Assembly: GCF_000316645.1 (NCBI RefSeq) | Contig: NC_019684.1 | Span: 310,001 to 374,000, forward strand | Reading direction: 5' to 3' | DNA: 64,000 nt | Source: Nostoc sp. PCC 7524 | Lineage (GTDB): Bacteria > Cyanobacteriota > Cyanobacteriia > Cyanobacteriales > Nostocaceae | Shown: in pieces, positions 1-26,909 of the stretch | How the letters are laid out: each line of letters starts with the position of its first letter | Numbering within the stretch: the first letter of the stretch is position 1 | The notes under the pieces: generated by a model | Database searches by the model: none | What the model saw: the letters and a program-made list of their open reading frames with translations, nothing else | Told to the model about the DNA's origin: nothing | Program-made: the position numbers and the translations under genes

Positions 1-779
1 TATACAATCTGGTAGTTACTTCGGCTAACAATTTGGGGCAGTAAATGATTAGAAAATTTATAAATACTGCCAGAACTGCAACCATAATAACAACCACCAC
101 AACTTTGACAATGATGAGCGACTTCTGGACGTGTTTCGACAGCTTTCCGATTGGGAATAGCTTTGATATTTACTCCCCTAACTTTCTTTACTGCTTCCAT
201 CACAATTGTGTCAGCAGGACGGAGTGGTTTAGCTGGGATAAATTCTCCATCAGGCAAACAATCAAGACCCTCTTTAGTACCACAAACACCTATTAATCTT
301 TCAACTGCTGTGTAGTGATTTTCAATATCTGCATAGCTAATTGGCCAATTTGAATCAGAATCTCCGTAATCTTGACCGCGAAAATCTCTTTCTGAATATC
401 TTAGACAAACACCATCCCATAGATTCTGCTTCCCATTAAGTCGAAAAATCTGATAGTTATGAAAAACTTCTGCGGAACGGGATGAAGTCGATAATATATC
501 ATTTTTGGCATAGAGCTGGTTTGCTTGAAAATTGTCATAGTGAAATGATTCTGATTGTTGTAAAGGCCAAGGCATATCAGCAGCAATTCCAAAATTCTGC
601 TCATGTTCGGGATTTAATTGGTTGGAGAAGTAGTTGTTATCAATTTTCTCTCCTTGCTCTAAAGAAAGTACCGATAAATTATTAATAGCTAACGTATGTG
701 CTAATATTCCTCCTGCTGCACCAGTACCGACAATACAAATGTCCCATTTTCTTACCAAAAAATTATTATCTAGGCTCAT
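1..779 (-). CDS. GMC-family FAD oxidoreductase, N-terminal part (runs off left edge)
   Basis: I see an open frame on the minus strand from ATG at 779 to the window edge with no stop, so about 259 residues are visible. Near the N-terminus is a Rossmann FAD-binding motif (CIVGTGAAGG), followed by an acidic residue ending strand 2 (SLEQGE). Around residue 235 is a cysteine cluster, CQSCGGCYYGC, of the kind found in long-chain alcohol oxidase-like and related GMC flavoproteins. By family it should oxidise an alcohol with FAD; the cysteine cluster hints at a lipophilic long-chain substrate, which is inference. It begins 8 bases after the SDR gene stop, so it is probably the last visible gene of the devBCA-SDR operon. 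The substrate-binding half lies outside the window. Confidence 0.85.
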   Translation of the reverse strand, partial: MSLDNNFLVRKWDICIVGTGAAGGILAHTLAINNLSVLSLEQGEKIDNNYFSNQLNPEHEQNFGIAADMPWPLQQSESFHYDNFQANQLYAKNDILSTSSRSAEVFHNYQIFRLNGKQNLWDGVCLRYSERDFRGQDYGDSDSNWPISYADIENHYTAVERLIGVCGTKEGLDCLPDGEFIPAKPLRPADTIVMEAVKKVRGVNIKAIPNRKAVETRPEVAHHCQSCGGCYYGCSSGSIYKFSNHLLPQIVSRSNYQIV

Positions 780-787
780 ATGCACAC

Positions 788-2113
788 TCACAATACTTCT
801 GTCAGAAAATCATCGGACGCAAAATAGATATATTCAAAAAGCTTGTTAAGAGTTTTCTGGTATTGTTGATAGTTAGATTTATTTAAATGAAATTTACCCT
901 TTTTGTAGTTAAAGTTGCTATTAGCTAATAAATCTATTAAAAGATTATTTAAATAATAGTTAGATTCACAAATTCTATAAATTTTAGAAATTCTTGGTAG
1001 GAGAGAATGGGAGAATGGGTGATACCTTGCCATCTCTCGAAGATAAGCGATCGCTTGGATGTTACTATTATTCATGGCTTCTAAAAAAGATATATCTTCA
1101 GATATCAGCCCTTGGTTATAAAAGTATTGAATTGTCTCTAAAAGAGTTGTTTTAATTGGAGTGATATTATAGCCAAGCTCACTGATGCTTTTTTTAGATT
1201 CACCGTAATAATAAAGGCCAGAAGATTTGACAAAATCTGGATGATATGAAGATGTCAATCTCTTGACAGCCAATGAAGATAATTTATCAAGCAGCAACGA
1301 CAGTGAATATGCTATGTTAACAGGTAATTCCCTAGGACTGCTCAAGCCAGTGATCATCACCATGAGATGATAAATTTCTGTCATGGTGAGATTATGTCCA
1401 GCTACAATATAGCGATCGCCACGATGTCCACGAGTAAGTGCTGCAACATGAGCTTTTGCAACATCCCGGACATCGCAAAATGAATGTCCTCCATTCACGT
1501 AAAATGGGAAATTATTCTGACAAAACCTCAAAACCAAGCCTGATGTAGTAATCTTGGAATGGCTAAAAGCTCCCGGCCCCAACATTAAACCTGGATTGAG
1601 TATCACAATGTTATGATTTTTGCTGGCGTAGTCAAGTGCTATTTGTTCACACTCTATTTTCGCCCAATCATCAGGACTTAGAGAATTTTTTTTAACATGG
1701 CTGCGATCGGAGTCTTCAGTAAATATTACCGGGGTCTTGCTACCAGCAATAGCAGACATAGAAGATGTATACACTACGCGCACATCTTGATGATTTTCGA
1801 GGGTTGTAAAAAATCTCTTCGTAATTTGAACATTGCCTCGAAAATATTCTGAAATAGCTAAACCAGGTTTCCAGTTACATTCTGCTGCAAAGATGATTGC
1901 ATCCATCCCTTCCAAGCATTTCTGGATATACTGACAGTCTTCTAGATCACCTTCATAGTAGGTTATTTGATGGTTTAATGTATCTCTGGAATATTTATGC
2001 TTAGTTCTTACAGCCGCATATACATGAAAATTGTTGTTTGCCAATTGCTGAATAATATGTTCACCAAGAAAACCTCCCGCACCAAAAACAATTACCTTGG
2101 GACATCCATTCAT
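788..2113 (-). CDS. Extended SDR / NAD-dependent epimerase-dehydratase with C-terminal extension
   Basis: A 441-residue protein. The N-terminus carries the NAD(P)-binding glycine motif GAGGFLG. A serine-rich stretch (YTSSMSAIAG) and a proline-containing NPGLMLGP segment are typical of the 3-beta-HSD/dihydroflavonol reductase branch of extended SDRs. The usual YxxxK is not obvious: DDWAKIECE sits where it is expected, with Trp in place of Tyr, so catalysis may be altered. Roughly the last 100 residues, after the SDR fold, match no domain I recognise. ATG at 2113 is preferred over a TTG five codons upstream because AGAGG lies just before it. Heterocyst glycolipid export in Anabaena involves an epimerase-like protein, HgdA, beside DevB/C-like HgdB/HgdC; the arrangement here is analogous. 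Confidence 0.85.
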   Translation of the reverse strand: MNGCPKVIVFGAGGFLGEHIIQQLANNNFHVYAAVRTKHKYSRDTLNHQITYYEGDLEDCQYIQKCLEGMDAIIFAAECNWKPGLAISEYFRGNVQITKRFFTTLENHQDVRVVYTSSMSAIAGSKTPVIFTEDSDRSHVKKNSLSPDDWAKIECEQIALDYASKNHNIVILNPGLMLGPGAFSHSKITTSGLVLRFCQNNFPFYVNGGHSFCDVRDVAKAHVAALTRGHRGDRYIVAGHNLTMTEIYHLMVMITGLSSPRELPVNIAYSLSLLLDKLSSLAVKRLTSSYHPDFVKSSGLYYYGESKKSISELGYNITPIKTTLLETIQYFYNQGLISEDISFLEAMNNSNIQAIAYLREMARYHPFSHSLLPRISKIYRICESNYYLNNLLIDLLANSNFNYKKGKFHLNKSNYQQYQKTLNKLFEYIYFASDDFLTEVL

Positions 2114-2225
2114 ATAACCTCTTGTCAAAATTACAATTTAATAACTACAAGGATTGTGTATTTTGTATATCTGTTTATTACAAATCACAAAGTTTTTATG
2201 GTTGAATACTAACGAAATATCACCA

Positions 2226-2936
2226 TCAATGAACCTGTTGCATCAGTCGTCCATCTTCCATATGAATTATGCGATCGGCAATATCTAAAATTCGGTTATC
2301 ATGAGTCACCATTAAAATAGAACAATGTTGTTCATAAGCTAATTTCTGCATCAAATTAACAACATCTCGTCCTGTTTTACTATCTAAAGCAGCCGTGGGT
2401 TCATCAGCTAAAACTAGCTTGGGATGGCTCACTAAAGCACGCGCGATCGCCACCCGTTGTTTTTGACCACCTGAGAGATCAGATGGATAATAATCAACTC
2501 TGTTGCCTAAATTTACAGCCGTTAGCATAGCTTCTGATTGCTTCTGGGCTTCTATTACGGAAATATGTTTGTGTAATTCCAGTGACATTTGCACATTTTG
2601 TTTAGCTGTTAAAAAATCTAGTAAATTGTGAGCCTGAAAAATATATCCAATATGGCGACGTATTTGTACTAAATCTTCATTACTAACGCCCTTAAGTTCC
2701 TGTCCTAAAAATTGCAGGCTTCCCTCTTGTACAGAACGTAAACCACCTATTAAAGTCAGTAAGGTTGTTTTACCTGACCCAGATGGCCCGGTCATGATTA
2801 CAATTTCTTGTGGGTAAATTGAGAAATTAATATCAAACAAAATTTGGCTTTTTAAGGCTTTATTACCAAAGTAATGGTTAAGATTTTGTATCTTAACTAT
2901 GCAGTTTTTTTTGTTGATTTGGCAACCATATTTCAT
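2226..2936 (-). CDS. devA: DevA-family ABC transporter ATP-binding protein
   Basis: A 236-residue ATPase of the MacB/LolD/DevA class. Visible are Walker A (GPSGSGKTT, about residue 50), the Q-loop (YIFQAHNLLDFLTA), the signature LSGGQKQRVAIARAL, Walker B (LVLADEPTAALD) and the H-loop (MVTHD). The asparagine- and leucine-rich Q-loop segment is typical of DevA. It would energise the DevC-like permease encoded 10 bases upstream, driving export through a DevB-TolC conduit. The original devBCA of Anabaena exports heterocyst glycolipid and has several paralogues; this copy sits beside a polyketide synthase and is probably dedicated to its product. The symbol denotes the family, not proven orthology. 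Confidence 0.93.
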   Translation of the reverse strand: MKYGCQINKKNCIVKIQNLNHYFGNKALKSQILFDINFSIYPQEIVIMTGPSGSGKTTLLTLIGGLRSVQEGSLQFLGQELKGVSNEDLVQIRRHIGYIFQAHNLLDFLTAKQNVQMSLELHKHISVIEAQKQSEAMLTAVNLGNRVDYYPSDLSGGQKQRVAIARALVSHPKLVLADEPTAALDSKTGRDVVNLMQKLAYEQHCSILMVTHDNRILDIADRIIHMEDGRLMQQVH

Positions 2937-2946
2937 ATGCTTTGAG

Positions 2947-4119
2947 TTAAAAAATATCGGCAGGATCTACATTGCGTAATTTATTAGTAGACAAGAAGCC
3001 AGAAAGTAAACACATTAAAACTGTAAAGCTAAAGATTAAAACTGCCTTATCTAAACTCATCATGATTGGTAATTTAGTCGCATCTTTGGCTATATCATAC
3101 ACACTGATAGATATCAACAATCCGGGAATATAACCTAGAGATGCTAAAATCAAAGCCTGTTGAAACACTACACCCAATAAGTAATTATTTTTGAAACCCA
3201 TAGCTTTGAGAGTTGCATACTCAGCCAAGTGATTAGAAATATTGCTATACAGGATTTGATAGACAACCACTACTCCCACAACAAATCCCATCCCTACCAT
3301 GAGATCAAACACAAATCCAATCGGTGTTCGCAAAGTCCAATAGTCTTTTTCTAAAGCTATAAATTCTTTTCGGGTAATCACTTTCACATCTTTGGGCAAT
3401 CTAGCTGATAAAGTTGCCAAAACAGTTTGGGGATTAGTACCAGGCTTGAGATTAATTAATCCTAAATCTATATTTTGTGCAGAACGGTCTTGAAATATCC
3501 GCAAGAAGGTTGAAGAACTAACAATTAAATTACCATCCACTCCAAAGGAAGGGCCTAGGCTAAATAGTCCGCCAATTCTAACTTTATATCCAACCAAACT
3601 GCTATAATTTAAAATCTCTACTTTAACCGGATTCCCTTGCAAAAATTCTTGAGCAATGGGGCCAAACTCTGGACGGGCAGCACGGTCAAAAAAAACTACA
3701 TTAGGCAGTTGTAGTAACTTTAAATTATCTTGAATTTCCGATAATGAGAAAACTGATTTAATCGGGTCAAAGCCAATAACATATATAGGAAACTTCCGCC
3801 CGTTTATAGGATTTCTTAACTTAGCAAATTGCAAATATAAGGGGCTAACTGATTCTACACTATCCAAACCTAATGCTTGATATAAACGCCAACGCGGAAA
3901 GCTTTGATTGGATGTCAAAGCTTGATATTGAGAACTGATTACAATTAAATCTGCCTGAAGATTATAATGTACCTGCGTAGCACTGGCATAGAGAGCATCT
4001 TGAAAGCCAATTTGAATAAACATCAGAACAGCAACAAGAGTAATTCCCGCCAAAGCGACAAGAAAGCGAACTCTTTGTCTAGCTAATTGTAACCAGGCCA
4101 GAGGGATATTGAGAATCAT
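2947..4119 (-). CDS. devC: DevC-family ABC transporter permease (FtsX-like)
   Basis: A 390-residue inner-membrane protein. The N-terminal membrane segment (VRFLVALAGITLVAVLMFIQ) is followed by a periplasmic domain of about 230 residues and three C-terminal helices, the FtsX/MacB topology used by DevC. The sequence around LAEYATLKAMGF is the usual coupling segment of this family. It ends 10 bases before devA and starts about 75 bases after devB, giving a devB-devC-devA order like the classical operon. As a mechanotransmission-type exporter it would pass force to the DevB adaptor rather than move substrate through itself; this is family knowledge. An exact match to the glycolipid exporter cannot be told from a paralogue by reading. 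Confidence 0.93.
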   Translation of the reverse strand: MILNIPLAWLQLARQRVRFLVALAGITLVAVLMFIQIGFQDALYASATQVHYNLQADLIVISSQYQALTSNQSFPRWRLYQALGLDSVESVSPLYLQFAKLRNPINGRKFPIYVIGFDPIKSVFSLSEIQDNLKLLQLPNVVFFDRAARPEFGPIAQEFLQGNPVKVEILNYSSLVGYKVRIGGLFSLGPSFGVDGNLIVSSSTFLRIFQDRSAQNIDLGLINLKPGTNPQTVLATLSARLPKDVKVITRKEFIALEKDYWTLRTPIGFVFDLMVGMGFVVGVVVVYQILYSNISNHLAEYATLKAMGFKNNYLLGVVFQQALILASLGYIPGLLISISVYDIAKDATKLPIMMSLDKAVLIFSFTVLMCLLSGFLSTNKLRNVDPADIF

Positions 4120-4193
4120 GGTTAAAGCCTTAATTAATCAAGATGAAATCACTCGATAAAATACTTTAATTACCATTTATGTAGTGATGTTGC

Positions 4194-5381
4194 TTATATA
4201 TTAATGATTACGTCAACTTGTAAGTCAGTCAGCGCAGCAACTTTCCTATTATCTTCCGGGCTATCAATCCGAATTCTGACATCAATAACTTTGTTATCCC
4301 TATCTACATTAGGATTATTATTGAAAATATTTTGTTGCCCAACTTGCAAACCAATTTCTATGACTGTTCCGCGCAATTCCCCTGAGAAAGCATTGCTAGT
4401 AATCATGGCTGATTGACCTGGGCGCACTTTTTTAATATCAGTCTCATAGACTTCTGCTACCACATACATTTGTTGGGTATTAGCTAAGTCAGCTATGCCT
4501 GCATTGCCAATGACTTCTCCCGCTCTAGTATGAATTTTGAGGACTTGGCCATTCATAGGCGCTCTAACAATGCTTAAATCTAAATCTGCGTGAGCCTGTT
4601 TAACTGAGGCTCTTGCAGTCTCCACATCAGTTTGGGCAGCTTGCACATCGGTAGGACGGATTTCTGCAATACTGTTAAGTCTGGCGTTGGCCTCGTATAA
4701 TTGCTTTTGCAGAGTTTCTACAGTTCGATTCAAAGCAGCTTTAGCCTCATTGAGTTGCTGTTGCACCGTATCAACCCGCAAACGTTTAGCATCAGCATCA
4801 GATGCTGATATTGCACCTTCTTTATATAACTGCTGATAACGTTGATTTTCTCTGTTAGCATTACGCAACTCTGCTGTTAAGCGAGCAATTGTTGCTTGTT
4901 GTGCAGACACTTCTCCACGCAACTGTGCTTCTAGGCGAGCAATTGTTGCTTGTTGTGCAAAGATGTCTCCGGTTTTTGCACCTGCTTGTACTTGGTTGAG
5001 AGCAGCTTGAGCAACTAGGACTTGCTTTTGGGCTTTTTCTAAGGCGGCGAGACGCGTATTATAACTATCAAGAATTGCAACTACTTGTCCCTGACGTACC
5101 AAGTCTCCTTTTTTGACCAAAATTCTATCAACCCGCGCACTTCCTAGTGAACCTGCGGCTGACAGACGAATAACTTCTCCTTGAGGTTCTAAACGTCCTA
5201 AAGCAGCAATAGCAGTGATGGTAGGAGAAGGTTTTGGTTCTTCTGGAAGTTGCAATCGCGACTGAGAGCGTGAAACAGTGTGGAGAGTAATTGCTCCAGG
5301 AACTATTGCCATCGCAAGCATCAACAATACTGTCCATTTACCTAGAGGTTTAGTTAATGACTGTTTTTGTTTTTGTACCAT
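4194..5381 (-). CDS. devB: DevB/HlyD-family membrane fusion protein
   Basis: A 395-residue periplasmic adaptor. It has an N-terminal membrane anchor (WTVLLMLAMAIVPGAITL), then a lipoyl/barrel-sandwich half (LGRLEPQGEVIRLSA) and a long alpha-helical hairpin with two copies of the heptad-like QQATIARLEA / QQATIARLTA. The second lipoyl half (IVRAPMNGQVLKIHTRAGE) and a beta-barrel follow. This is the DevB architecture that links DevCA to a TolC-type outer-membrane channel; no tolC is in this window. A TTG at 5435 would add 18 residues, but ATG 5381 gives the normal family N-terminus. It is the first gene of the leftward operon and faces the PKS genes across a long divergent promoter region. Confidence 0.92.
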   Translation of the reverse strand: MVQKQKQSLTKPLGKWTVLLMLAMAIVPGAITLHTVSRSQSRLQLPEEPKPSPTITAIAALGRLEPQGEVIRLSAAGSLGSARVDRILVKKGDLVRQGQVVAILDSYNTRLAALEKAQKQVLVAQAALNQVQAGAKTGDIFAQQATIARLEAQLRGEVSAQQATIARLTAELRNANRENQRYQQLYKEGAISASDADAKRLRVDTVQQQLNEAKAALNRTVETLQKQLYEANARLNSIAEIRPTDVQAAQTDVETARASVKQAHADLDLSIVRAPMNGQVLKIHTRAGEVIGNAGIADLANTQQMYVVAEVYETDIKKVRPGQSAMITSNAFSGELRGTVIEIGLQVGQQNIFNNNPNVDRDNKVIDVRIRIDSPEDNRKVAALTDLQVDVIINI

Positions 5382-6543
5382 AATGATGTTTTTTGATTTA
5401 AAATCATCGCTTTGGCGTGATTTAGTAAATAGCAATTAGCTGGAATAAAGCCATTAAATTCTAGTGAATTTGAGTTGTGTATTGGGTAGATATGCGGGCT
5501 ATTGCTATAGATATTGCGTCATGCGATCGCCTGTTGAAAATCAATTATTTTCATACTAAAAAAGTATCAAGTATTATGACATTAGTTTTTGATGTTTGCA
5601 TTGTCCTAATATTAAGAATAATCCCATTGAACTTTTGAAAAATCCAGCTGGCTGAAAGCTGGACTATAGAGATTGTTGCTCAGTAAACCTAGTAAGCAAG
5701 CCTCTAGTCAGAATCTGAGAGTTCTGAATTCAAGATAAATAGAACATTAGGTCAGTAAGGTAAATATGTTTGTTGTGTTGGTCTATATATCTAGACTGCA
5801 TAAACTTCAAAACTTCAGATTAGATTACTTTGCATCAACAATAAACTGATTGATACTCAATTACAACTCATATGCAACGCCATTGATACTGATTGAGTAA
5901 TTATTGTAAAAACAGGAATTATCCGTCGGTTAATTAAACTTCTTACACAATTTTCTCTGTGCGGGTGAATTTATTTAGTAAAAACTTTAACCCTGGTTCA
6001 TTTTTATATATATCTCTATATTTAGATAGAGTAGTTGTAGTTAGACTTACATATTTTCAAATTAATTCACATCAATCTTTGGATAGATGCAGAATATAGT
6101 TAACAAACTCAAGCCTTGAAAAATTTATCTTTTTTGAGATGATATTTATCATCAACATCAAGCTGATTGGATCAGATGAGGAAGCTTTTACAAAGCTATT
6201 CTAGTTACAGGTGATACGTTAAATATCAGATAGATCAGGACATAATTGTGTACATTGTAAAATGTAATTATTTGATAAAGGTAAGCTTTTAAACCTCCAA
6301 GTTTATGGCTTTGTAGCAAAAGATATCAATTAGGAGGCATAATTATTACAACAAGTATCCACTAAATTTACTTAATTCAACAATAATTTCAGATATAAAG
6401 CCAGCAAAAGTAGAAGATATCCAGCAGAAGCCATGCAATTTATATGCAGCTTGTGTAACAAAATTCTCGAAATTAAGGTATTAATAAACTAAGACTATTA
6501 ATAGCTATTGAGTGACACTCATTGCCACAGAGAATTAGAGAAG
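5382..6543. promoter_or_regulatory. Long divergent intergenic region between exporter and PKS operons
   Basis: About 1.16 kb without a convincing gene, AT-rich, lying between the divergent devB-like gene and the small gene at 6544. It contains a perfect GTA-N8-TAC site (6037-6050). It also holds a short hairpin-forming repeat (CAGCTGGCTGAAAGCTGG region near 5645) and a TACATT-GTAA-AATGTA inverted repeat near 6252. Its length suggests long leaders or several promoters. No small ORF with a good ribosome binding site was found. Confidence 0.6.
6037..6050. promoter_or_regulatory. Candidate NtcA binding site (GTA-N8-TAC)
   Basis: The bases read GTAGTTAGACTTAC, a perfect match to the palindromic NtcA consensus GTA(N8)TAC. 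It lies in the divergent region about 500 bases before the small gene at 6544 and 655 bases before devB. NtcA is the global nitrogen regulator of cyanobacteria and activates the classical devBCA operon. I did not find a perfect TAN3T box at the ideal 22-base distance on the plus side, so activation in either direction is only a suggestion. Confidence 0.45.
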
Positions 6544-12495: not shown

Positions 12496-12617
12496 GGGGC
12501 TGGGGATTGGGGACTGGGGACTGGGGACTGGGAACTGGTTAAAAATTCTCCCTTGTCTCCTCTGCTCCTCTGCTCCCCCTACTCCCCCTGCTCCCCCCAC
12601 TCCCCTCCCCTGCCTCC
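12496..12617 (+). repeat. STRR-type repeat dividing the ketoreductase
   Basis: G-rich heptamer-like units (GGGGATT, GGGGACT) fill 12496-12538, followed by GGTTAAAAATTCTCCC and then CT-rich units (CTGCTCC, CCCACTC) to about 12617. The same three-part arrangement, including TAAAAATTCTCCC, recurs at 30130-30220. Heptanucleotide STRR repeats are known from heterocystous cyanobacteria. Except for the TGA at 12493-12495, the repeat is open in the PKS frame. Confidence 0.8.
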
Positions 12618-12651
12618 AAAAAATACACCTACCTATTTCAGAAAGATAACA

Positions 12652-14355: not shown

Positions 14356-14410
14356 CCAAATATTTGCGCTTGAAAAATAGATGCTAACCGCCAGTATTAG
14401 GAGCTAGGTG

Positions 14411-17400
14411 ATGCAAGATTTTACCCAGAATAAAATCCCTAAAATAGCAATTGTGGGTATGGATTGCTATTTGGGGGGGAACTGCAAAGATTTGGATACT
14501 TTTGAACGCAGTATTTATGAGGGAAGGCAACATTTTACTTCTGTACCTCCTGACAAATCGCCAGATAAATTACCCCAAGAAAATCAACTTGCTATTAACA
14601 CACCACCATTAGGTGCGTATATTCAAGATTGTGAAATTGATACTTTAGGATTGCAAATACCACCAGAGGAAGTAGATAATTTTCATTTTCACGAACTGTT
14701 GATGCTGAAGGTAGCTGATCAGGCTCTAAAAGATGCAGATTTACCTCAAGGAATCAGAATCGCAGTAGTCATCACTACTTCTAAAGACCTGGCGCAAGGT
14801 CAATTTACAACTACTACCAAAGGCAGCGCATACCCAATTTATCTAGAAAATAAAATCGCTGACCAGATTGCCAAACTGTGGAATTTTGCTGGCCCTACAT
14901 TCACACTCACAGCTGAACAAAATTCTGTTTTCAAAGCTTTAGAAATTGCCCAGAAATTACTCCATCTGAAAGAAGTAGATGCTGTTTTGGTGGGCGCGGT
15001 GGAGTTAGCTGAGGGTAATTCTAGCGTTTTACATCAAAATCACAATACAGGTGTAAATACTCTGTCTTATGATCAAAATGTCAATGGCTGGATGGTAGGT
15101 GAAGGTGCGGCGGCTGTGGTGTTAAAACTCCACGAAACTGCAAAGCAAGATCACAGTCGCATCTATGCAGTGATTGATGCTCTCAGCCTGATAGAAGATG
15201 CCAAGTCTAAAATTTACTCAATTCCTCCTATCCCAAATGGGGAAGCGGTAACACAAGCTTGTCAACAGGCGTTTCGTCTAGCAAATATCCAACCCACAGA
15301 TATCAACTATTTGGAAGTTGTGGGGAGTGGCATTCCTCAGCAAGATGAGTCAGAAATTCAGGGTTTGCTCCAGGCTTATCAGACTGGTGAACTCAGTCTC
15401 AGTTGTGCCATTGGCAGCGTGAAAGCCAATATTGGTCATACCTATGGTGCATCGGGAATAGTCAGTCTGATGAAAACAGCACTGTGTCTTTATCACCGCT
15501 ACATTCCCGCAGTTCCCCAGTGGTCTAGTCCCAAAATGCCAGAGGTGTGGCAGGGTAGCCCTTTTTATGTGGCTACTGAATCAAAACCCTGGTTTTTAGA
15601 AACAGAAGATACCAGAAGAACAGCCGCTATTAACGGTATCGAGATAGATGGCAGTTATGCCCATGTAATTTTGTCAGAGGAAGTGAGTCAGACAAATTAC
15701 AGCAGCAGATATTTAGAGCAAATGCCTTATTATATGTTTGCGATCGCGGCTGATGATCGAGCTACTCTATTAGAGCAAATCCATACTCTGGAGCAAACTA
15801 TCGAAGATTGCTCTTCGTTATCAGATGCTGCGCGCCTCACTTTTATAGCTTATCAACAGCGTCAGCAGTCAACTTATGCCCTAGCCATTCTCGGACGGAA
15901 TAAACAGGAATTAACACGAGAAATTCAACGGGCAATTCAGGGTGTTGCGACTGCCTTTGAGACGGGTAAAGACTGGCAAACTCCTGTAGGTAGTTACTTT
16001 AGTCCCAAACCATTAGGTGAACAAAGTCAAGTCAGTTTTGTTTACCCTGGTTCCTTCAGTTCTTACATAGGATTAGCTCGTGATCTGTTCCGTTTATTTC
16101 CTGAAATTTATGATGATCTGGTAATTAAGAGCGTTTACAATCGTGTCGCTAATATAGAAAAACTTATCTATCCCAGAAGTTTGCCAAAACTTTCTAAAAA
16201 GCAACTGGAAGTGCTGGAACGGCAGTTGATAGATGATCCAGTCACTATGCTGGAATTTGAAATTGCGATCGCCGGATTACTGACAGGTATTCTGAGGAAT
16301 TATTTCCAACTGCAACCTCAGAGTGTCTTTGGCTATAGTCTAGGCGAAAATAGCATGATGTTTGCTCAAGGTATCTGGAATGAATTTAACCAAAGTAGTC
16401 AGGGTATAAATACATCTTCTCTCTTTAAAACTCGGCTATCTGGCCCCAAAAATGCGGTGCGTGAACATTGGGATTTGCCCTTGATGCCAGATGATTACCA
16501 AGACAAAACATTTTGGAGTAACTATGTAGTTTTATGTCCAATATCACGTATTCAAGAAGCTATTCAACAGGAAAAACGTGTTTATTTGACTTTAATTAAT
16601 ACACCAGAAGAGGCTGTGATTGCAGGTGAGACAGAAGCTTGTCAAAGAGTAATTAAAGCCCTAAATTGTCATGCTCAAGAAGCCCCTATCAATCATGTGA
16701 TCCATTGCGAGCCAATGCACTCTGAGTACAATGAACTCGTTAAAATGAACTCTTTACCTGTTCAAAATGTACCAAATACAATTTTTTATTCCGCCGCAGA
16801 ATACGCACCTATTACTCTTAATAGCCAGTCTATTGGTCACAACCTTGCTAAAACTTTATGTCAACAACTAGACTTTCCCAAGCTAATTAACCGCGTCTAC
16901 AATGATGGCTGCCAAATATTTATGGAAGTAGGTATTGGTAGCAACTGTTCCAGATGGATTGGTGAAACTCTCAAGCAAAAAGCACACCTTGCAGTTTCTC
17001 TCCATAGAAGAGGTATGGACTTTCATACTTCTATTCTCAGAGCCTTGGCAAAGCTATTTAGCCATCGGGTGAGTCTAGATTTATCGCCACTATATGGTCT
17101 TTCGCAAGTGATTTATGATCAATGCCAGCTACCTATAAATTTAGATGATAGCAAAGCTGGTAACACGTTCTTAGAGTCAAAAAATCAGCCAATCACTGAA
17201 CATAAATTTTCTAACTTGCTGATGAATGCTGCTCCTCAACAGCAGCAGGAACTACTGATATCCAAAAATACTGAACAAGTGAATTTTGCTGTAGGTCAAA
17301 ATACTATGAACACTTTACAAACCAACTTAACACTTAACTTGGCTGCTGAAGATATACAAGACCAAAGTCATGTCCAAAATAGTAGTCAATCTCTTGGTTT

Positions 17401-17719
17401 ATTGGTATATGAGCGTGATTTTGAACAGGATGATCATACACAACCAAATGATTTTCTCCAAACAGTAGGAGAAGATGATATACATTCTGTGAATTATGGT
17501 TGGAATACACACAACTTTGATGATAAAAAATCCTTACCCAATTTACGCAGTCCTTACTATCAAAAACTTAAAGAGAACGTTGAGAGCATGACTAAAGCCC
17601 ATGCTACTTTTTTGCATAATCGACAAGAATCTCTCCAACAAATTAGCAATATTGTTCAGCAACAGCTAGCTTTATCACAAAAGTTGTTGGAATTAGAGGT
17701 AAAACAATTAAGTAACTAA
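14411..17719 (+). CDS. Chain-length-factor-like KS (Cys to Gln) plus AT protein, HglD/PfaB-C type
   Basis: A 1102-residue protein; ATG 14411 follows TAGGAG. Residues 10-430 are a ketosynthase fold with a degenerate active site. The nucleophile position reads TAEQNS with Gln170 in place of Cys, the first His is replaced by Val304 (EVVGSG), and only His343 (IGHTYGA) remains. Cys to Gln is the hallmark of chain-length factors (KS-beta) and loading KSQ domains. From about 535 there is an acyltransferase-like domain (FVYPGSFSS), with the nucleophile elbow GYSLGE at Ser643 and a later histidine in HCEPMHSEY. The tail (1040-1102) is a coiled coil with HNRQESLQQ, resembling the linker repeats of the first synthase. 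It is probably the partner that sets chain length. Confidence 0.88.
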   Translation: MQDFTQNKIPKIAIVGMDCYLGGNCKDLDTFERSIYEGRQHFTSVPPDKSPDKLPQENQLAINTPPLGAYIQDCEIDTLGLQIPPEEVDNFHFHELLMLKVADQALKDADLPQGIRIAVVITTSKDLAQGQFTTTTKGSAYPIYLENKIADQIAKLWNFAGPTFTLTAEQNSVFKALEIAQKLLHLKEVDAVLVGAVELAEGNSSVLHQNHNTGVNTLSYDQNVNGWMVGEGAAAVVLKLHETAKQDHSRIYAVIDALSLIEDAKSKIYSIPPIPNGEAVTQACQQAFRLANIQPTDINYLEVVGSGIPQQDESEIQGLLQAYQTGELSLSCAIGSVKANIGHTYGASGIVSLMKTALCLYHRYIPAVPQWSSPKMPEVWQGSPFYVATESKPWFLETEDTRRTAAINGIEIDGSYAHVILSEEVSQTNYSSRYLEQMPYYMFAIAADDRATLLEQIHTLEQTIEDCSSLSDAARLTFIAYQQRQQSTYALAILGRNKQELTREIQRAIQGVATAFETGKDWQTPVGSYFSPKPLGEQSQVSFVYPGSFSSYIGLARDLFRLFPEIYDDLVIKSVYNRVANIEKLIYPRSLPKLSKKQLEVLERQLIDDPVTMLEFEIAIAGLLTGILRNYFQLQPQSVFGYSLGENSMMFAQGIWNEFNQSSQGINTSSLFKTRLSGPKNAVREHWDLPLMPDDYQDKTFWSNYVVLCPISRIQEAIQQEKRVYLTLINTPEEAVIAGETEACQRVIKALNCHAQEAPINHVIHCEPMHSEYNELVKMNSLPVQNVPNTIFYSAAEYAPITLNSQSIGHNLAKTLCQQLDFPKLINRVYNDGCQIFMEVGIGSNCSRWIGETLKQKAHLAVSLHRRGMDFHTSILRALAKLFSHRVSLDLSPLYGLSQVIYDQCQLPINLDDSKAGNTFLESKNQPITEHKFSNLLMNAAPQQQQELLISKNTEQVNFAVGQNTMNTLQTNLTLNLAAEDIQDQSHVQNSSQSLGLLVYERDFEQDDHTQPNDFLQTVGEDDIHSVNYGWNTHNFDDKKSLPNLRSPYYQKLKENVESMTKAHATFLHNRQESLQQISNIVQQQLALSQKLLELEVKQLSN

Positions 17720-17726
17720 GATAAAA

Positions 17727-17792: not shown

Positions 17793-17953
17793 AAAAAAAT
17801 ATCCAATATGTAGTGTGCGTCAGTACGAATAATTTCTCGGTATGTCAAAGGCTTATCTGATTGATGCACCCTATGAACAGTCAATTTGGGATAATTTATT
17901 TTTTTGTGTTCCCTAACTTAATACGATTCAGTGAGTGAAATTCAAACATTGGA

Positions 17954-18054
17954 GATCCCCCTAAATCTCCCCTTCAACAAGCTCAGGGCATCGCTTCAAA
18001 AGGGGGACTTCAAGATTATGATTCCCCCCTTTTGAAGGGGGGCTAGGGGGGATC
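17954..18054. repeat. MITE-like inverted-repeat element
   Basis: The ends are GATCCCCCTAAATCTCCCC on the left and GGGGGGCTAGGGGGGATC on the right, imperfect inverted repeats about 20 bases long enclosing about 60 bases. No transposase is encoded. Elements with GATCCCCCTA...AGGGGGATC ends are common in Nostocales genomes. Confidence 0.65.
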
Positions 18055-18150
18055 AAAACCTTAACTGAACAGTATTGTTCCCTAAACACACAGCAATCCT
18101 GAGCCTATTATTGACAAATTTCCACCGAAAACTATGAGAGGTCTAAAAAA

Positions 18151-19815
18151 GTGATTATCTCAAATAATTCCACAAAACAGTATTATAACCGTTTAAAAAT
18201 ACCCAAATCATTTGATAGTAAAAATCAAGTTTGGCAAGGTAATTTAGATACTTTAGCTTTTGATGATACAGGCATCAAAACAAAGCTCTTAAATTTACAT
18301 AAACCATGCTATATTATTAGAATTGAAGGGAAGATAGGAGTTACTAATGAAGGTTATTGGAGTCATTCCAATAATGGTAAAAGCGAGGAAATAGAACTGC
18401 TATTAGCTGTTCCACCTTTAACCAGTCAACAGTTAGGTGATCCAAATTTCTTGAATTTTCACAATGTGAAGTATGCCTATGCTGCTGGTGCAATGGCTCA
18501 TGGGATTGCTTCAGAAGAACTGGTGATTGCTCTTGGCAAAGAAAGTATTTTGAGTTCCTTTGGCGCTGGTGGATTGTCTCCTGCTCGTGTCGAGTCTGCT
18601 ATTAACCGCATTCAACAAGCTCTACCCCAAGGGCCTTACGCTTTTAACTTACTTCATAGTCCTAGTGAACCGGCTATTGAACGCAGAGTTGTTGATTTGT
18701 ATCTCAAACATCAGGTAAGAACAATAGAAGCCTCTGCTTTTTTAGATTTAACTGAAAATATTGTCTATTACCGGGCAGCTGGACTAAGTTTAAATTCAGC
18801 CAATCAAATTGTCATCAATAATAAAGTTATTGCCAAAATTTCCAGAAGAGAAGTAGCAACTAAATTTTTACAACCTGCTCCAACAAAAATTCTGAAACAA
18901 TTAGTAGAGCAAGGTCTAATTAGTGAATTACAAGCCAATCTCGCCGAAAAAGTCCCAATGGCTGATGATATCACTGTTGAAGCCGATTCTGGTGGACATA
19001 CAGATAATCGTCCTCTGGTGTGTTTATTATCTTCCATCTTGGAATTAAGAGATTATATTCAAAGCAAATATGGTTATGAGCAACCTGTCAGAATTGGTGC
19101 AGCTGGAGGTATAGCAACGCCACAATCAGCACTAGCAGCTTTTATGATGGGGGCTGCTTATATTGTGACTGGTTCTATTAACCAATCTTGCATAGAAGCT
19201 GGTACTTCTGAACATACTAAGCAATTGTTAGCTCAGGCGGAAATGGCTGATGTAATGATGGCTCCCGCCGCAGATATGTTTGAAATGGGTGTGAAAGTTC
19301 AAGTTCTCAAAAGAGGAACTTTCTTTCCTTTACGCGCACAAAAACTGTTTGATTTATACAAAAGCTATGAATCAATTGCAGAAATTCCCTTAGCTGAGAG
19401 AGAGAAATTAGAAAAACAAGTTTTTCAAAAGAGTTTAGAAGCGGTTTGGCAAGAGACAGTAGCTTATCTTTCCCAACGTAATCCTGTGAAACTTGCCCAA
19501 GCAATCAATAAACCTAAATTGCAGATGGCTTTGATTTTTCGTTGGTATCTTGGTTTATCATCTCGTTGGTCTAATTCTGGGGAAAAAGGCCGAGAAATGG
19601 ATTATCAAATCTGGTGTGGGCCAGCGATGGGTAGTTTTAATGATTGGGTAAGAGGTTCATATTTAGAAGCACCAAATAATCGCCAAGTAGTTGATGTTGC
19701 TCACCACATGATGACAGGGGCTGCTTTTTTATACCGCATTCAAAGTCTAAAATTTCAAGGGCTACAAATGCCAAATGAATACAGTCAATATTCTCCTATG
19801 ATGAAATTTAATTAA
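18151..19815 (+). CDS. PfaD-type enoyl reductase (FMN-dependent, nitronate monooxygenase fold)
   Basis: A 554-residue protein matching the PfaD enoyl reductase of PUFA synthases. Diagnostic motifs are FGAGGLSPARVESAI, the EADSGGHTDNRP block starting at Glu277, and IGAAGGIATPQSALAAFMMG in the phosphate-binding part of the FMN TIM barrel. The C-terminal QIWCGPAMGSFNDWV segment is also PfaD-specific. It would reduce enoyl-ACP intermediates in trans during iterative chain extension, allowing saturated or selectively reduced products. GTG 18151 follows GAGAGG at good spacing. Its presence beside a PfaA-like synthase, KR-DH and CLF-AT completes a beta-carbon processing set. The substrate chain length cannot be read from sequence. 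Confidence 0.92.
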   Translation: MIISNNSTKQYYNRLKIPKSFDSKNQVWQGNLDTLAFDDTGIKTKLLNLHKPCYIIRIEGKIGVTNEGYWSHSNNGKSEEIELLLAVPPLTSQQLGDPNFLNFHNVKYAYAAGAMAHGIASEELVIALGKESILSSFGAGGLSPARVESAINRIQQALPQGPYAFNLLHSPSEPAIERRVVDLYLKHQVRTIEASAFLDLTENIVYYRAAGLSLNSANQIVINNKVIAKISRREVATKFLQPAPTKILKQLVEQGLISELQANLAEKVPMADDITVEADSGGHTDNRPLVCLLSSILELRDYIQSKYGYEQPVRIGAAGGIATPQSALAAFMMGAAYIVTGSINQSCIEAGTSEHTKQLLAQAEMADVMMAPAADMFEMGVKVQVLKRGTFFPLRAQKLFDLYKSYESIAEIPLAEREKLEKQVFQKSLEAVWQETVAYLSQRNPVKLAQAINKPKLQMALIFRWYLGLSSRWSNSGEKGREMDYQIWCGPAMGSFNDWVRGSYLEAPNNRQVVDVAHHMMTGAAFLYRIQSLKFQGLQMPNEYSQYSPMMKFN

Positions 19816-20055
19816 CTGAGAATATTCTGACTTATTCTTCAAACTAATCACGGGAAAAACCCACAACCAAATATCAAAAAGTTTTTCCCCTCCAGCCTGA
19901 TAGCTGTAGAGATGAGGACATGATTAAAAGCTCAAACTAATTCATAGCATTGATTTGATTATTGCCTATTGCCTTCTGCTATACCTCACTCACCACTCCC
20001 TTTTTAACATCAACGGACTCCTAATCACTCTTAATTTTCTAGGAGCTAAATTAAT

Positions 20056-21420
20056 ATGAGTTTCGACAGGAATTTAGGTCGGCTTGAGCAAGCTATGGAA
20101 ATTTTAAATACTCGTGCTACTACTTGGAATGTAGTAACGATTAGTCGGATTAATGGGTCTGTTAATGAAGACGTTATTAGACAATCTCTAGACCTTATTC
20201 AGTGCCGCCATCCTCGACTCAATTCGCACATTGTTAGTAGCAGAAATGGTTGGAAATTTCAGACTGAAGGTACAGATAAAATACCTTTACGAGTTGTCAA
20301 AAAGTTAGATAGTAAGCAATGGCTAGAGGTGTTTTATGAAGAAATGAACAATAAAATTGATAGTAATAAATATTTACTGCGGGTGGTACTTGTTCATATC
20401 TTAAGTGATAGGCACGTAAGTTTTTTGATCACAACAGCACATCATGCGATCGCAGATGCGTTATCATGTATCCGACTACACTCAGAAATCTTGACTTACT
20501 ATCAGGAAATTTCGGTTGGTGAAGCAATCAAGCCATTGATTAACTTAACTCCTCTCCCACCAACAGAGGAACTAATACCTCAAGATAAAAAGGGATTAAA
20601 AGGGAAGATAAATAGTTTATTTTTCTTGTTGCATTTGGCTTGGCAGAAACTTTGGTATCGACCAGAAACATTAGGTTTTGAAAAATACTTACCCATTGCA
20701 CAACGTTATAGTGATGTTATTCACAGACAACTTGAGCCAGAATTAACACAACAGTTAGTAAATCGTTGTCGGCAGGAAAATACCACAGTGAATAGTGCTT
20801 TATGTGCTGCCATGATGTTTACAGTCGCACAAAAACTACTGAAAAATAATAAAAAATTTGTGCGTTTAAGTTGCTTATCCTACCTGGATGTGAGAAGACA
20901 TATCAACCCTGCAATTAGTGATGAAAATATGGCTGTGTTGGCTACATCAAATATGGGATTTCATGCCATACATACCAACACAAATTTTTGGCAATTAGCA
21001 CGAGAGGTAAAACAAAAGCTAGAGGCTAGTCTCAAGCAAGGTAATATTTTTAAAATGATATTGATTGCCAAATACCTGATAGACTTTTGCTTTATTTATC
21101 CTAAACAAGTAGCTGCTACGGTATCTGTTTCCAATGTTGGTAAAGTCAATATACCCAAAGTTTATGGAGAATTAGAAGTGGAAGAAATTAGTTTTGCTGG
21201 CACTCATGCTTTATATGGAGGACTTTTTACTATCCATGCTTCAACTTTCCAAGGGAAGATGTTATTAAATTTTGTCTTTTCTCGCCCTTCCATCAGTCCA
21301 GAAACTATGGAAGCTCTTGTAAATACTTTCATCACCTATATTTTGAATATTTCTCAGTGTCAGCATGATTTTTGCTTGCATGATATTCCACAAAGAGATT
21401 ATTACCCTGTGAAACAATAA
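20056..21420 (+). CDS. Condensation-domain-fold acyltransferase (PapA/WS-DGAT-like)
   Basis: A 454-residue stand-alone protein with the HHxxxD motif of condensation domains and CoA/ACP-dependent acyltransferases: His129-His130-Ala-Ile-Ala-Asp134 in the context TAHHAIADALS. The second half has the usual floor-loop region (VSVSNVGKVNIP and GTHALYGGLFTIHA). Such free-standing enzymes (PapA5, phthiocerol diester synthase type) move an ACP-bound acyl chain onto an alcohol or amine. Here it is followed by a free ACP gene, and no thioesterase or reductase release domain is present in the cluster. My inference is that it releases or transfers the finished chain by ester or amide formation. AGGAGC precedes ATG 20056. 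A 240-base gap separates it from the PfaD gene. Confidence 0.85.
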   Translation: MSFDRNLGRLEQAMEILNTRATTWNVVTISRINGSVNEDVIRQSLDLIQCRHPRLNSHIVSSRNGWKFQTEGTDKIPLRVVKKLDSKQWLEVFYEEMNNKIDSNKYLLRVVLVHILSDRHVSFLITTAHHAIADALSCIRLHSEILTYYQEISVGEAIKPLINLTPLPPTEELIPQDKKGLKGKINSLFFLLHLAWQKLWYRPETLGFEKYLPIAQRYSDVIHRQLEPELTQQLVNRCRQENTTVNSALCAAMMFTVAQKLLKNNKKFVRLSCLSYLDVRRHINPAISDENMAVLATSNMGFHAIHTNTNFWQLAREVKQKLEASLKQGNIFKMILIAKYLIDFCFIYPKQVAATVSVSNVGKVNIPKVYGELEVEEISFAGTHALYGGLFTIHASTFQGKMLLNFVFSRPSISPETMEALVNTFITYILNISQCQHDFCLHDIPQRDYYPVKQ

Positions 21421-21485
21421 TTAAAAATCACATATCAGTAAGGTTGAGATATTCAGGGCAATTTATTTACTTCAGAGGTACATTA

Positions 21486-21794
21486 ATGACTCAAGATCCA
21501 CCCAATAATACAACTAATAAGTCCCATCACACAGCAGAAGAAATTCAACTGTGGCTACTCTCTAATATTGCCACACAGATGGGAATTGAGCCTGATGAAA
21601 TAGATATTCGAGAGCCTTTAGATACCTATGGATTGGATTCTGTGCAGGCAATTATTCTGATAAAGAAAGCGGAAAAATTATTGGGATTTAAGCTTTCTCC
21701 TATGCTGCTTTGGCATTATCCCACTATTGCATCACTAGCGGAACGTTTAGCAGAAGAATTGGCAACTTCAGAATCAGAAACTTTTCAAATTTAA
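21486..21794 (+). CDS. Free-standing acyl carrier protein
   Basis: A 102-residue protein with a single carrier domain. The phosphopantetheine site is Ser52 in YGLDSVQAI, and the preceding segment (IREPLDTYGLDS) is typical of PKS-associated ACPs. ATG 21486 is preceded by AGAGG; a start at 21444 would add residues from a non-conserved leader. It lies between the condensation-fold acyltransferase and the TubC-domain protein, so it probably carries the acyl chain for one of them. The phosphopantetheinyl transferase needed for its activation (HetI in Anabaena) is not in this window. Confidence 0.92.
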   Translation: MTQDPPNNTTNKSHHTAEEIQLWLLSNIATQMGIEPDEIDIREPLDTYGLDSVQAIILIKKAEKLLGFKLSPMLLWHYPTIASLAERLAEELATSESETFQI

Positions 21795-21835
21795 CTACTG
21801 CAAATAATTTTCAAGATTTGGGAGATTTGGTAACT

Positions 21836-23707
21836 ATGAACGCATCAGAATTAGTGGCAAACCTCAATAAACAGGGTGTTCATTTGTGGGTTGATAACGA
21901 CAAACTAAATATTCGTTCCCCCAAAGGAGTAATCACACCTGACATTCAGGAAAAATTGGCTGTCCACAAAGCTGAGATTCTGGCTTTTGTCCGGGAAATG
22001 GATATTGCTACAAACTCTGTATCTATATCCTTTAATCAAGGATTAAGCCTGCAAACTATTGGACGTTTAATTGGAGGATTTATTGATAACTCAATTGAAG
22101 ATTTTCAGCCGCCAATTATTGATGCCAAACTTATGGCTCAAAAGCTGATAATGACATTTAAACCCTTACCTAGTAATTATAGAAATCAAGAAGTCTTAAA
22201 ATTTCGGCAAGAACTAGAGGAGATACTCAGAAATTATGGAGTTAAACTTTTACCTTGGGCAGAAGCAACGCGAGAATTTATTTATGACATATCTATCCCT
22301 GTAATTAATCAAAAGAGAAGTTTGAAATTGAGAGGAGTTAAGGCAGAAGTCAATGCAGTTATTGATGTAGAAAATCCTCCTTCTTGCCTACGCAAGATGG
22401 GTATTTTAGTGGCAGAGAATTTTTATAAATTTTATTCTCAAGTGGTTTTAAAAAATCGCAATCTTCCTGTGATGAAAATTGCCAAGTTGAGCAGTTGGGC
22501 TGAGGAACACGCCGCTAAATATGTGGAAGATCCTACCAATACACAAGTAATAATTCTTACTGATATAGACCATGAATTTATTAACCCTAAAATTTCATAT
22601 AAGGAAAAGATAAATATTGGCTTAAAAACTTTGGTTAGGACATTTTCAGAAATTGTCATTGGAGTTTCAAGTGATAAGATTTCCATATTAAACATGAATT
22701 TATCAGACTCTATATTCTCAAAAAAAGATATAGAATCTTTTGTCTTAAAATCATTAATCCCTAAAGTTTTTGTCCCAATTACTCCTCTGTTATTGAGCCG
22801 ATTTCAATTAGGACAGTACAATCCTCAAGAATCTAGTTACGCGGCAAATTTAGTCAGGTTGGGGCAAGAACTAGCATCAACAGGTTTATTTCCATCTGGT
22901 TTTAAACTTGATGACGTAATTAAACGAAAATCCCATAGAGATATTGTCAACGTTATAGTCAATGGTAGAACAGGCGTTTCTTATGGATTTGTCGCCTATG
23001 CTGAACCGCCACAATATATAGGCGCTGTAGAAATCACTGCTACTGAATGGGAAAACCTGTCACCGATTGAGGGATTTAGTAGTGATGAAATCCGTAAGAA
23101 TGGGCAAAATAGACGTTATCTCAAAATCAAGGTTGGCGATGAATATTTATTTAAGCAAATTCCTGATATTTGGTTGGTAAGTTCTCGTTCAGGTGCCAAT
23201 AAAACCGATTTAAATCTTACCAGTGATATTATCCGCATTGGTTTGCAAGAGAGGTTATTGCTAGAATTACCAGAAGGTATTGAAGCAGAAATGGTAGACA
23301 TTAAACCTTCTTATGATATTTATGTGATGCTTGCTATTAGTTTAGCGGCTGCGTTGTATACACCAGAATTGATTAAAAATGGTGCGCCAATGGTTCATTT
23401 CCACGGCTACCCTGCATTTGATTGGTTTGAAAAAAATGAATACTGCGTTGGAGTCAATAATCCTTCTGTACCTTGTGGCACTTATGAATCTGGGGTGTTT
23501 AACTTTTTAGGTATTTCTAGTTTAGCTAAAAATTCCAAGGAAACTATAGATTTAGTTGGATTAGTAGAACCAGATCATGGTACAAATTTCATAGCCAGTG
23601 ATATGGAGTATTTAGTTGCTAGATTAAAAGCTGGATGTGCAGAAGGCCAAATTGAGCTAGGCGGAAAACATTTTGCTTCTTTGAAAGTCAACTCTAGTGA
23701 AGTTTAA
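21836..23707 (+). CDS. Unrecognised protein with N-terminal TubC-type docking domain
   Basis: A 623-residue protein. Residues 1-55 match the TubC N-terminal docking domain used between NRPS/PKS subunits: NASELVANLNKQGVHLWV, then IRSPKGVITPDIQ and KAEILAFVRE. The remaining 560 residues are unlike anything I recognise: a helical segment to about 200, a mixed alpha/beta core, and a conserved-looking C-terminus with MVHFHGYPAFDWF, NNPSVPCGTYESGVFNF and GLVEPDHGTNFIA. The His/Cys/Asp-rich motifs suggest an enzyme rather than a scaffold, but I assign no reaction. ATG 21836 follows GGAG and lies 42 bases after the ACP stop, so it is probably co-transcribed with the ACP. It may receive the ACP-bound chain for a final modification. 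Confidence 0.85.
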   Translation: MNASELVANLNKQGVHLWVDNDKLNIRSPKGVITPDIQEKLAVHKAEILAFVREMDIATNSVSISFNQGLSLQTIGRLIGGFIDNSIEDFQPPIIDAKLMAQKLIMTFKPLPSNYRNQEVLKFRQELEEILRNYGVKLLPWAEATREFIYDISIPVINQKRSLKLRGVKAEVNAVIDVENPPSCLRKMGILVAENFYKFYSQVVLKNRNLPVMKIAKLSSWAEEHAAKYVEDPTNTQVIILTDIDHEFINPKISYKEKINIGLKTLVRTFSEIVIGVSSDKISILNMNLSDSIFSKKDIESFVLKSLIPKVFVPITPLLLSRFQLGQYNPQESSYAANLVRLGQELASTGLFPSGFKLDDVIKRKSHRDIVNVIVNGRTGVSYGFVAYAEPPQYIGAVEITATEWENLSPIEGFSSDEIRKNGQNRRYLKIKVGDEYLFKQIPDIWLVSSRSGANKTDLNLTSDIIRIGLQERLLLELPEGIEAEMVDIKPSYDIYVMLAISLAAALYTPELIKNGAPMVHFHGYPAFDWFEKNEYCVGVNNPSVPCGTYESGVFNFLGISSLAKNSKETIDLVGLVEPDHGTNFIASDMEYLVARLKAGCAEGQIELGGKHFASLKVNSSEV

Positions 23708-25131: not shown

Positions 25132-25135
25132 TTTT

Positions 25136-25215: not shown

Positions 25216-25218
25216 CGT

Positions 25219-26903: not shown

Positions 26904-26909
26904 ACCCCT

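Follow-up and report, generated by a model that had tools for sequence, protein, structure and literature searches.

An hgl-like lipid-synthase island of Nostoc sp. PCC 7524 ending in a free carrier protein and a TubC_N-domain protein of predicted class II aldolase fold

The acyl carrier protein (ACP)-thioester reductase HglB is essential in Anabaena for heterocyst glycolipids (HGs), and the canonical hgl island of Anabaena sp. PCC 7120 combines synthase genes in the order HglE-F-G-D-C-A-B with HgdBCA and HglT. A second, smaller type of island found beside it, widespread in heterocytous cyanobacteria and comprising hgdCB plus hglEAFGCA in five open reading frames (ORFs), has been described under the name of 'hgl-like islands'; in the sections of that paper available to us (Perez Gallego et al. 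2025, PMC11804610) the product is given as unknown, no HG is tied to these islands, and it is argued that they do not make HGs. The locus described here, which lies in a 64,000-nt stretch (the window; contig NC_019684.1, positions 310,001 to 374,000) of the 6.72 Mb genome of Nostoc sp. PCC 7524, belongs to this class, already in print. Its synthase arm ends in a PapA-like acyltransferase, a free ACP and a TubC_N-domain protein, termed TubC-X, which was mentioned only briefly in an earlier note on the same DNA and is the most informative part of the locus. Neither this end module, nor its docking motif, nor TubC-X in the slot of HglB is described in the accessible main text of PMC11804610, and no description of the PapA-ACP-TubC-X module was found among the titles and abstract openings listed from the one open-access library searched. 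On balance, the reading favoured here is that of an hgl-like island with an exported lipid, ended by a docked ACP and TubC-X acting together as a release module.

The genes named in the earlier note were all present on the strands reported, and curated models agreed with them (Table 1); exporter genes run leftward and synthase genes rightward, with about 1.75 kb separating the two arms. As in published hgl-like islands, so far as their description was accessible (PMC11804610), homologues of hgdC and hgdB accompany homologues of hglE, F, G, C and A in a second island forming its own clade. Measured against the published count of seven hgl genes in five ORFs, the window has HglE and HglF split and an HglT homologue lying just outside it. 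The same genome also holds a canonical hgl island (L002, L125; L and G numbers label loci and genomes, G000 being the source genome itself), with homologues of HglE, HglF, a separate ketosynthase (KS), HglCA, HglG and HglB followed by HgdB-, HgdC-, HgdA- and HglT-type genes, the names being assigned from gene order, domains and the cited papers. The window synthase is therefore a paralogue of that copy, with which it shares 56% identity in HglE, 56% in HglF, 47% in HglCA and 70.5% in HglG. Synthase logic and a DevBCA-family exporter are common to both islands, and the ACP domain of HglB resembles the free ACP of the window. The only HglB found in the genome lies at G000:C2:6380716-6382242, whereas in the window an acyltransferase and the ACP plus TubC-X stand in place of the ACP-thioester reductase.

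Phylogenetic trees separated the two islands. In a KS tree built with the 54 of 74 collected KS rows that reached at least 33% identity, 24 window-type rows formed one group (SH-aLRT 81, by a quick method) beside the canonical hgl group (10 rows, SH-aLRT 100); L110, the canonical-type island of G382, fell in the canonical group, and L165, labelled canonical beforehand, fell outside both. A tree of 34 DevC rows placed the window in a 17-row clade (100/100) made up of 16 island DevCs and an own-genome paralogue (L123), with the island DevC of L113 just outside it and the own-genome HgdC on another branch, window DevC and HgdC being united in one 25-row clade (100/100). Direct orthology to the canonical hgl/hgd cluster, which the earlier note had put forward as the outcome that would overturn its proposal, was thus ruled out, and its suggestion that a Pfa/Hgl-type pathway runs in parallel, served by a separate DevBCA exporter, was supported, as was conserved synteny across related genomes. 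The island type itself is already reported in the consulted part of PMC11804610.

DevA, DevB and DevC each scored above the cut-off of a curated model, and among 20 related upstream stretches from 19 genomes all three were found divergent beside the synthase in 16. As regards the remainder, L110 is the canonical hgl island with DevB and DevC, L103 carried a DevB fragment only, and none of the three was found in L114 or L115. The short-chain dehydrogenase/reductase (SDR) and GMC oxidoreductase were rejected as a conserved part of the pathway, there being no match of at least 60 bits in any of these stretches (0/20), and are local additions outside the conserved island, which they do not define; genes farther out could have escaped notice where a stretch ends about 2 kb or less beyond DevA (L097, L098, L100 and L109), ends at DevA (L099) or is short (L103). 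The SDR was also rejected as an HgdA orthologue (~20% identity, E 0.13). A further DevBCA set in the same genome (L189/L190, G000:C2:594001-612000) has a DevC (67%) that groups in the clade of the hgl-like islands; over about 6-8 kb to the left and right of this set, no synthase gene was recognised.

The docking domain of TubC-X was recognised by the TubC_N model (PF18563) at 70.2 bits against a gathering cut-off of 26, and matched the docking domains of AerJ and TubC by both PDB sequence search and Foldseek. In the PDB sequence search of TubC-X only docking domains were convincing, flavodoxin matches at E 0.006-0.023 being disregarded. The partner ACPs end in a short common tail (SETFQI, SEIFEI, SEIIQI or SEVFEI, with the variants ESFEI, SDIIQM and SETFEF) in 59/59 loci. 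A regular expression for this tail retrieved 58 of the 877 ORFs of the same loci, all with an ACP signature and one per locus; the 59th tail, that of L045, was seen on inspection, its ACP not being an ORF kept in that scan. None of the nine other ACP-like ORFs listed from those loci carried the tail, which was retained where the ACP ends a modular polyketide synthase (PKS; L048) and where the PapA-like gene separates ACP from TubC-X (eight loci, including L007). In the rhabdopeptide synthetase, according to the portion of PMC6195595 consulted, the contact made by a related docking domain is confined to the five C-terminal residues of the partner, bound as a beta-strand through charged pairs or salt bridges, and TubC itself may bind in another way. 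Judged by sequence, TubC-X probably binds this ACP tail via TubC_N. The pairing resembles that of the beta-hairpin docking domains of TubC, EpoB, AerJ and Kj12, which share this N-terminal domain and likewise face a partner whose C-terminal tail is conserved; the difference is that here the domain is carried, within a lipid synthase, by a protein of predicted class II aldolase fold, and not by a non-ribosomal peptide synthetase module or a halogenase.

The same arrangement of genes is found in dozens of genomes, far beyond chance. Within the family, TubC-X was found in 108 of the 211 genomes covered; across the phylum it matched in 67 of 386, over most of its length in 32 and in nearly all the others through the docking domain. 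Sixty TubC-X loci were compared. In 59 the ACP lay directly or one gene upstream, L065 being truncated where its contig ends. PfaD was found no more than 9.5 kb away in 47, and PapA-like genes stood before TubC-X in 35 and after it in 8; an HgdA-like SDR lay downstream in 20, while DarB was present in 6 and HglB in 2. Many residues are invariant over 52 TubC-X sequences. The locus is a real and conserved pathway of the recently described class, probably for an exported lipid.

Several of these neighbourhoods merit separate record. A homologue of the StlD/DarB ketosynthase family lies upstream of ACP-TubC-X in L012, L017-L020 and L046 (Fischerella, Chlorogloeopsis, Cyanomargarita and kin), which hints at resorcinol-type lipids in those loci. 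TubC-X follows a modular-type PKS in L048-L052 and L064, where the terminal ACP bears the same tail and an SDR comes next; inspection of L048 by eye further suggested genes resembling those for a glycosyltransferase, a UDP-galactopyranose mutase and an MFS protein. In L007 (L007:6305-7940) a 432-aa protein without a Pfam match and a 2Fe-2S ferredoxin, possibly an oxygenase pair, lie between PfaD and ACP, the 432-aa protein being found upstream of TubC-X in 8 of the 60 loci. TubC-X and an HgdA-like gene in L065 stand on a contig whose label, Candidatus Gracilibacteria, probably reflects an assembly contaminated with cyanobacterial DNA.

As regards DISPLACEMENT of HglB, orthologues (E at most 1e-150, with at most seven candidates scored per genome) were found in 200 of the 211 genomes and not in 11. 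Six of the 11 (G382, G425, G426, G474, G456 and G415) keep a canonical HglE KS, 86-89% identical to the HglE of the source genome, and each of the six has two TubC-X copies. In G382, G425, G426 and G474 one of the two copies is reached 13.2-13.9 kb downstream from the canonical KS; contig breaks separate the HglE KS from TubC-X in G456 and G415. By way of comparison, HglB lies 12.5-13.7 kb downstream of the canonical KS in the source genome and in seven of eight other genomes with two TubC-X copies, the eighth (G432) being ambiguous with canonical KS and HglB on different contigs. The order HglG-ACP-TubC-X-SDR, followed by a phosphopantetheinyl transferase (PPTase) at the HetI position, was read in L187, L251, L043 and L252 (with two ORFs between in L251), and the HglG-ACP-TubC-X-SDR adjacency was also seen in L055 and L060 (G456 and G415). 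The usual order is HglG-HglB-SDR-PPTase, as in L253, with three ORFs between HglB and SDR in L188; the Nostoc cluster in the accessible part of PMC8073705 lists HetI, SDR, HglB and PfaD in that sequence. When all candidates were scored in five of the six genomes (G425 excepted), only 46-50% matches to HglB inside ORFs of at least 1045 aa were found. HglT is kept in all six, and within Cylindrospermum, sp. NIES-4074 (G474) has the cassette and G452 has HglB. No report on the HGs of these strains was found in the open-access literature searched.

Two TubC-X copies were present in 6/11 HglB-lacking and 8/200 other genomes (Fisher p 1e-5) and any TubC-X in 10/11 and 98/200 (p 0.01), the tests being descriptive only in that they treat related genomes as independent. 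Genome-wide mutual exclusion of HglB and TubC-X was rejected, as those 98 of the 200 HglB genomes also have TubC-X; the pattern observed concerns the slot in the canonical hgl island. Among the other HglB-lacking genomes, G421, G064 and G540 have an hgl-like KS and TubC-X, with neither HglB nor a canonical HglE KS nor HglT found, and G508, a genome 89% complete, had no matching KS. The SDR at the HetN position changes along with HglB in L187, L251, L252, L043, L055 and L060, the new SDR being only about 27-30% identical to the usual one, and a HetN-like gene may be missing at that site.

For the C-terminal domain of TubC-X a class II aldolase fold was predicted, which it shares with RhaD, FucA, NovR and pyruvic oxime dioxygenase (POD) of that superfamily and with TqaM. 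HxH and HG motifs were found in 52 of 52 TubC-X sequences, their mapping to metal-binding histidines resting on motif order, and the PSxD and PxGTxExG motifs follow an order resembling PSSE and PGTxE of class II aldolases. Set against those enzymes, TubC-X has about 10% identity, no Pfam match, and an extra middle domain plus the docking domain. The middle domain is weakly CoaB-like (best Foldseek E 0.018, not significant).

Gene content, paralogy, the docking motif, the predicted fold and the presence of TubC-X in the HglB slot of six genomes were obtained directly by computation. We infer that the chain is transferred to the ACP and acted on there by docked TubC-X, on the grounds of the motif in the ACP tail, the unvarying pairing and the slot of HglB; docking itself, metal binding, release and the nature of the product are of the same conditional standing in what follows. 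A paralogue of the heterocyst-glycolipid synthase would build a long, largely reduced acyl chain, which would be handed to the free ACP, and TubC-X would dock on the ACP tail via TubC_N, this split end module replacing the fused ACP-thioester reductase HglB. The putative metal-dependent aldolase-fold domain would then act on the ACP-bound, probably 3-hydroxy, chain so that the chain leaves, and the DevBCA pump of the island would export the finished lipid. The preferred chemistry is a retro-aldol-type cleavage of the 3-hydroxyacyl-ACP to give a fatty aldehyde, which a neighbouring SDR may reduce in some islands; direct reduction would be the alternative. Retro-aldol cleavage is preferred because the fold family performs metal-dependent cleavage, because an SDR comes next in all six displaced islands, and because HG-type products are 1,3-diols, as stated in the consulted part of PMC11804610. 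In the window the PapA-like acyltransferase could esterify the product, and its presence suggests an ester; glycosylation by the HglT-like transferase could follow, the position of this gene beside the island pointing to a sugar headgroup in this genome as well. More tentatively still, and at less than even confidence, TubC-X may be the founder of a new release class, in which a metal-dependent aldolase-fold domain docks on a carrier tail and ends the making of the lipid, for instance by retro-aldol cleavage, is able to replace HglB, and has come to serve no fewer than three synthase types (hgl-like, canonical hgl and modular PKS).

A number of findings weigh against release by TubC-X as set out above. 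The Pfam class II aldolase model (PF00596) gave no match in TubC-X up to E 10, profile-profile comparison with class II aldolases was not significant (probability 0.3%), and the Foldseek superposition was loose (TM-score 0.24 by query, rmsd 9.7), such that the aldolase link rests on the order of the motifs and on the predicted fold. All displaced TubC-X copies fall in a single clade, to which L045 also belongs (SH-aLRT 97), and the six HglB-slot cases are therefore not independent. A homologue of HglB adjoins TubC-X in two Symploca loci (L023, whose TubC-X carries an in-frame stop, and L026) and in G199, where the hgl-like island has an HglB copy, a tail-bearing ACP and TubC-X in a row (L254:5352-9870); TubC-X is accordingly not a simple substitute everywhere. 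In G101 HglB was not found, the canonical HglE KS stands near a contig end, and the sole TubC-X is in a modular PKS cluster. Finally, the window lacks the SDR that comes after TubC-X in the displaced islands, and its nearest relative by TubC-X among the 60 loci (L006) had no PapA-like gene in the ranges scanned.

The alternative that survives best, which is nevertheless somewhat unlikely, gives TubC-X a tailoring role comparable to that of the AerJ halogenase, which has this docking domain too: once docked, TubC-X would modify the chain on the ACP, perhaps as an Fe(II) oxygenase of NovR/POD type, and release would fall to PapA, to a reductase or to some other enzyme. Among PDB entries AerJ matches the docking domain best; NovR, POD and TqaM share the predicted fold, POD being described, in the part of PMC5216522 consulted, as a homologue of class II aldolase that uses Fe(II); L023, L026 and L254 have both TubC-X and HglB; and a PapA-like transferase able to release the chain stands near TubC-X in 43 of 60 loci. 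This account meets a difficulty in the six canonical hgl islands, which would be left with no known release enzyme, TubC-X occupying the place of HglB and HglB not being found elsewhere; an oxygen-dependent step would presumably also be awkward inside a heterocyst. Less probable again is that TubC-X is an unrelated thioester reductase yielding the same primary alcohol as HglB, with NAD(P)H bound by a Rossmann-like middle domain and the acyl-ACP by the C-terminal domain: the fold match of the middle domain was not significant, no NAD(P)-binding motif was noticed in it by eye, CoaB itself binds CTP according to structure entry titles, and the metal-site motifs would be left unexplained.

It is improbable, to a greater degree than either proposal above, that the product is a variant heterocyst glycolipid made by HG chemistry with a second glycosyltransferase. 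A glycosyltransferase 67% identical to the own-genome HglT does lie just left of the window (L001:12611-13885, minus strand), aligned with the GMC, SDR and DevACB genes, and close homologues of it were found downstream of TubC-X in 5 of 60 loci, which suggests a sugar in some strains. Against this, no HG is tied to hgl-like islands in PMC11804610 as far as consulted, HglB is replaced, and HglT was not found in the three genomes whose only matching KS is of hgl-like type, so that a sugar would not be general. That the locus is no more than a redundant or decaying duplicate of the hgl island, making no distinct lipid, is very improbable, for although the module is dispensable within the family, in about half of whose genomes TubC-X was found, the active-site motifs are present, gene order is stable, many TubC-X residues are invariant, and those same three genomes keep hgl-like KS and TubC-X with HglB, canonical HglE KS and HglT not found.

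Chain growth in this synthase family proceeds by KS and chain-length factor with ketoreductase (KR), dehydratase (DH) and enoyl reductase steps. Motif scans located the KS cysteine, acyltransferase (AT) serine, both synthase ACP serines, KR tyrosine and DH HxxxGxxxxP, in addition to the HHxxxD of the PapA-like protein and the serine of the free ACP; the second KS has AEQNS in place of the active-site cysteine and so resembles a chain-length factor. The first synthase subunit also carries a structural KR half, as seen by eye. HglE and KR-DH, two ORFs in the window, are probably fused in many relatives, because the KS-bearing ORF there is 2104-2485 aa long. The likeness to Pfa polyunsaturated fatty acid (PUFA) and secondary lipid synthases lies in PfaA and PfaD families exceeding curated cut-offs; in the classification of PMC3098273, as partly consulted, Type A PUFA synthases have 4-6 ACPs in PfaA, hgl is Type F, and a second cyanobacterial type is Type G. 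The window synthase differs in having two ACPs, the DH on a KR-DH subunit, the transferase-ACP-TubC-X end and a dedicated exporter. Pfa-like hybrids are covered in PMC13291983, likewise consulted in part. The acyltransferase shares PapA_C and HHxxxD with PapA5 and phthiocerol transferases and yet falls far below the NCBIfam PapA cut-offs.

Elsewhere in the genome, a third Pfa-like island near 1.64 Mb (L004/L005, G000:C2:1638001-1672000) has an HglE-like KS 69% identical to the own HglE; inspection by eye also showed a pair of FAD-protein-like ORFs and one ORF of 2005 aa with an adenylating-enzyme-like start. A 1982-aa KS-containing PKS followed by a 144-aa gene, thioesterase-like by eye (L003:7611-13990), fell outside the hgl groups of the KS tree. 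Downstream of the island, window positions 23773-28515 hold, on the minus strand, genes for an FAD-binding oxidoreductase and an NMT1-type ABC importer, which nothing ties to it.

Table 1. Features of the hgl-like island in the window (positions counted from the first nucleotide of the 64,000-nt stretch).
Feature	Position	Strand	Basis or remark
GMC-family flavoprotein oxidoreductase	1..791	-	C-terminal part in window; full gene L001:14109-15791, 560 aa; Pfam GMC_N + GMC_C
SDR / HpnA-like epimerase-family protein	788..2128	-	Local addition
DevA-type ABC exporter ATPase	2226..2936	-	TIGR02982, 378.7 bits (cut-off 295.8)
DevC-type ABC permease	2947..4119	-	TIGR01185, 451 bits (cut-off 290.35); hgl-like island clade
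DevB-type membrane fusion protein	4194..5435	-	TIGR02971, 367.9 bits (cut-off 129)
HglE/PfaA-type synthase, KS-AT-ACP-ACP	7186..12495	+	TIGR02813 PfaA, 1773 bits (cut-off 1010); active-site motifs; KS tree
KR-DH subunit (HglF-like)	12553..14355	+	Domain scans, motifs
Cys-less KS (chain-length factor)-AT subunit, HglCA/PfaB-like	14408..17719	+	PfaB family, 151 bits (cut-off 144.3)
PfaD-type enoyl reductase, HglG-like	18151..19815	+	TIGR02814, 662.7 bits (cut-off 449.25)
PapA-like condensation-fold acyltransferase with HHxxxD	20056..21420	+	PapA_C, 77.9 bits, over cut-off
Free ACP with C-terminal docking motif	21486..21794	+	55% identity to ACP domain of own-genome HglB
ACP-tail short linear motif SETFQI	21774..21791	+	Predicted ligand of TubC_N domain
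TubC-X (TubC_N-domain protein)	21836..23707	+	TubC_N, residues 3-55; middle domain, ~97-325; class II aldolase-like, ~328-623
Predicted class II aldolase-fold domain of TubC-X	22817..23704	+	PSxD, HxH (H521, H523), PxGTxExG, DHG (H581)

The product of hgl-like islands matters both for lipid biomarkers and for the origin of heterocysts, and the carrier-docked TubC-X provides a concrete handle on the chemistry of these islands by which that chemistry becomes testable. If TubC-X does release chains, it would do so by a chemistry unlike that of the usual thioesterase or reductase; and if it truly replaces HglB, a step essential for heterocyst glycolipids in Anabaena would have been reinvented in some strains, whose glycolipids may differ as a result.

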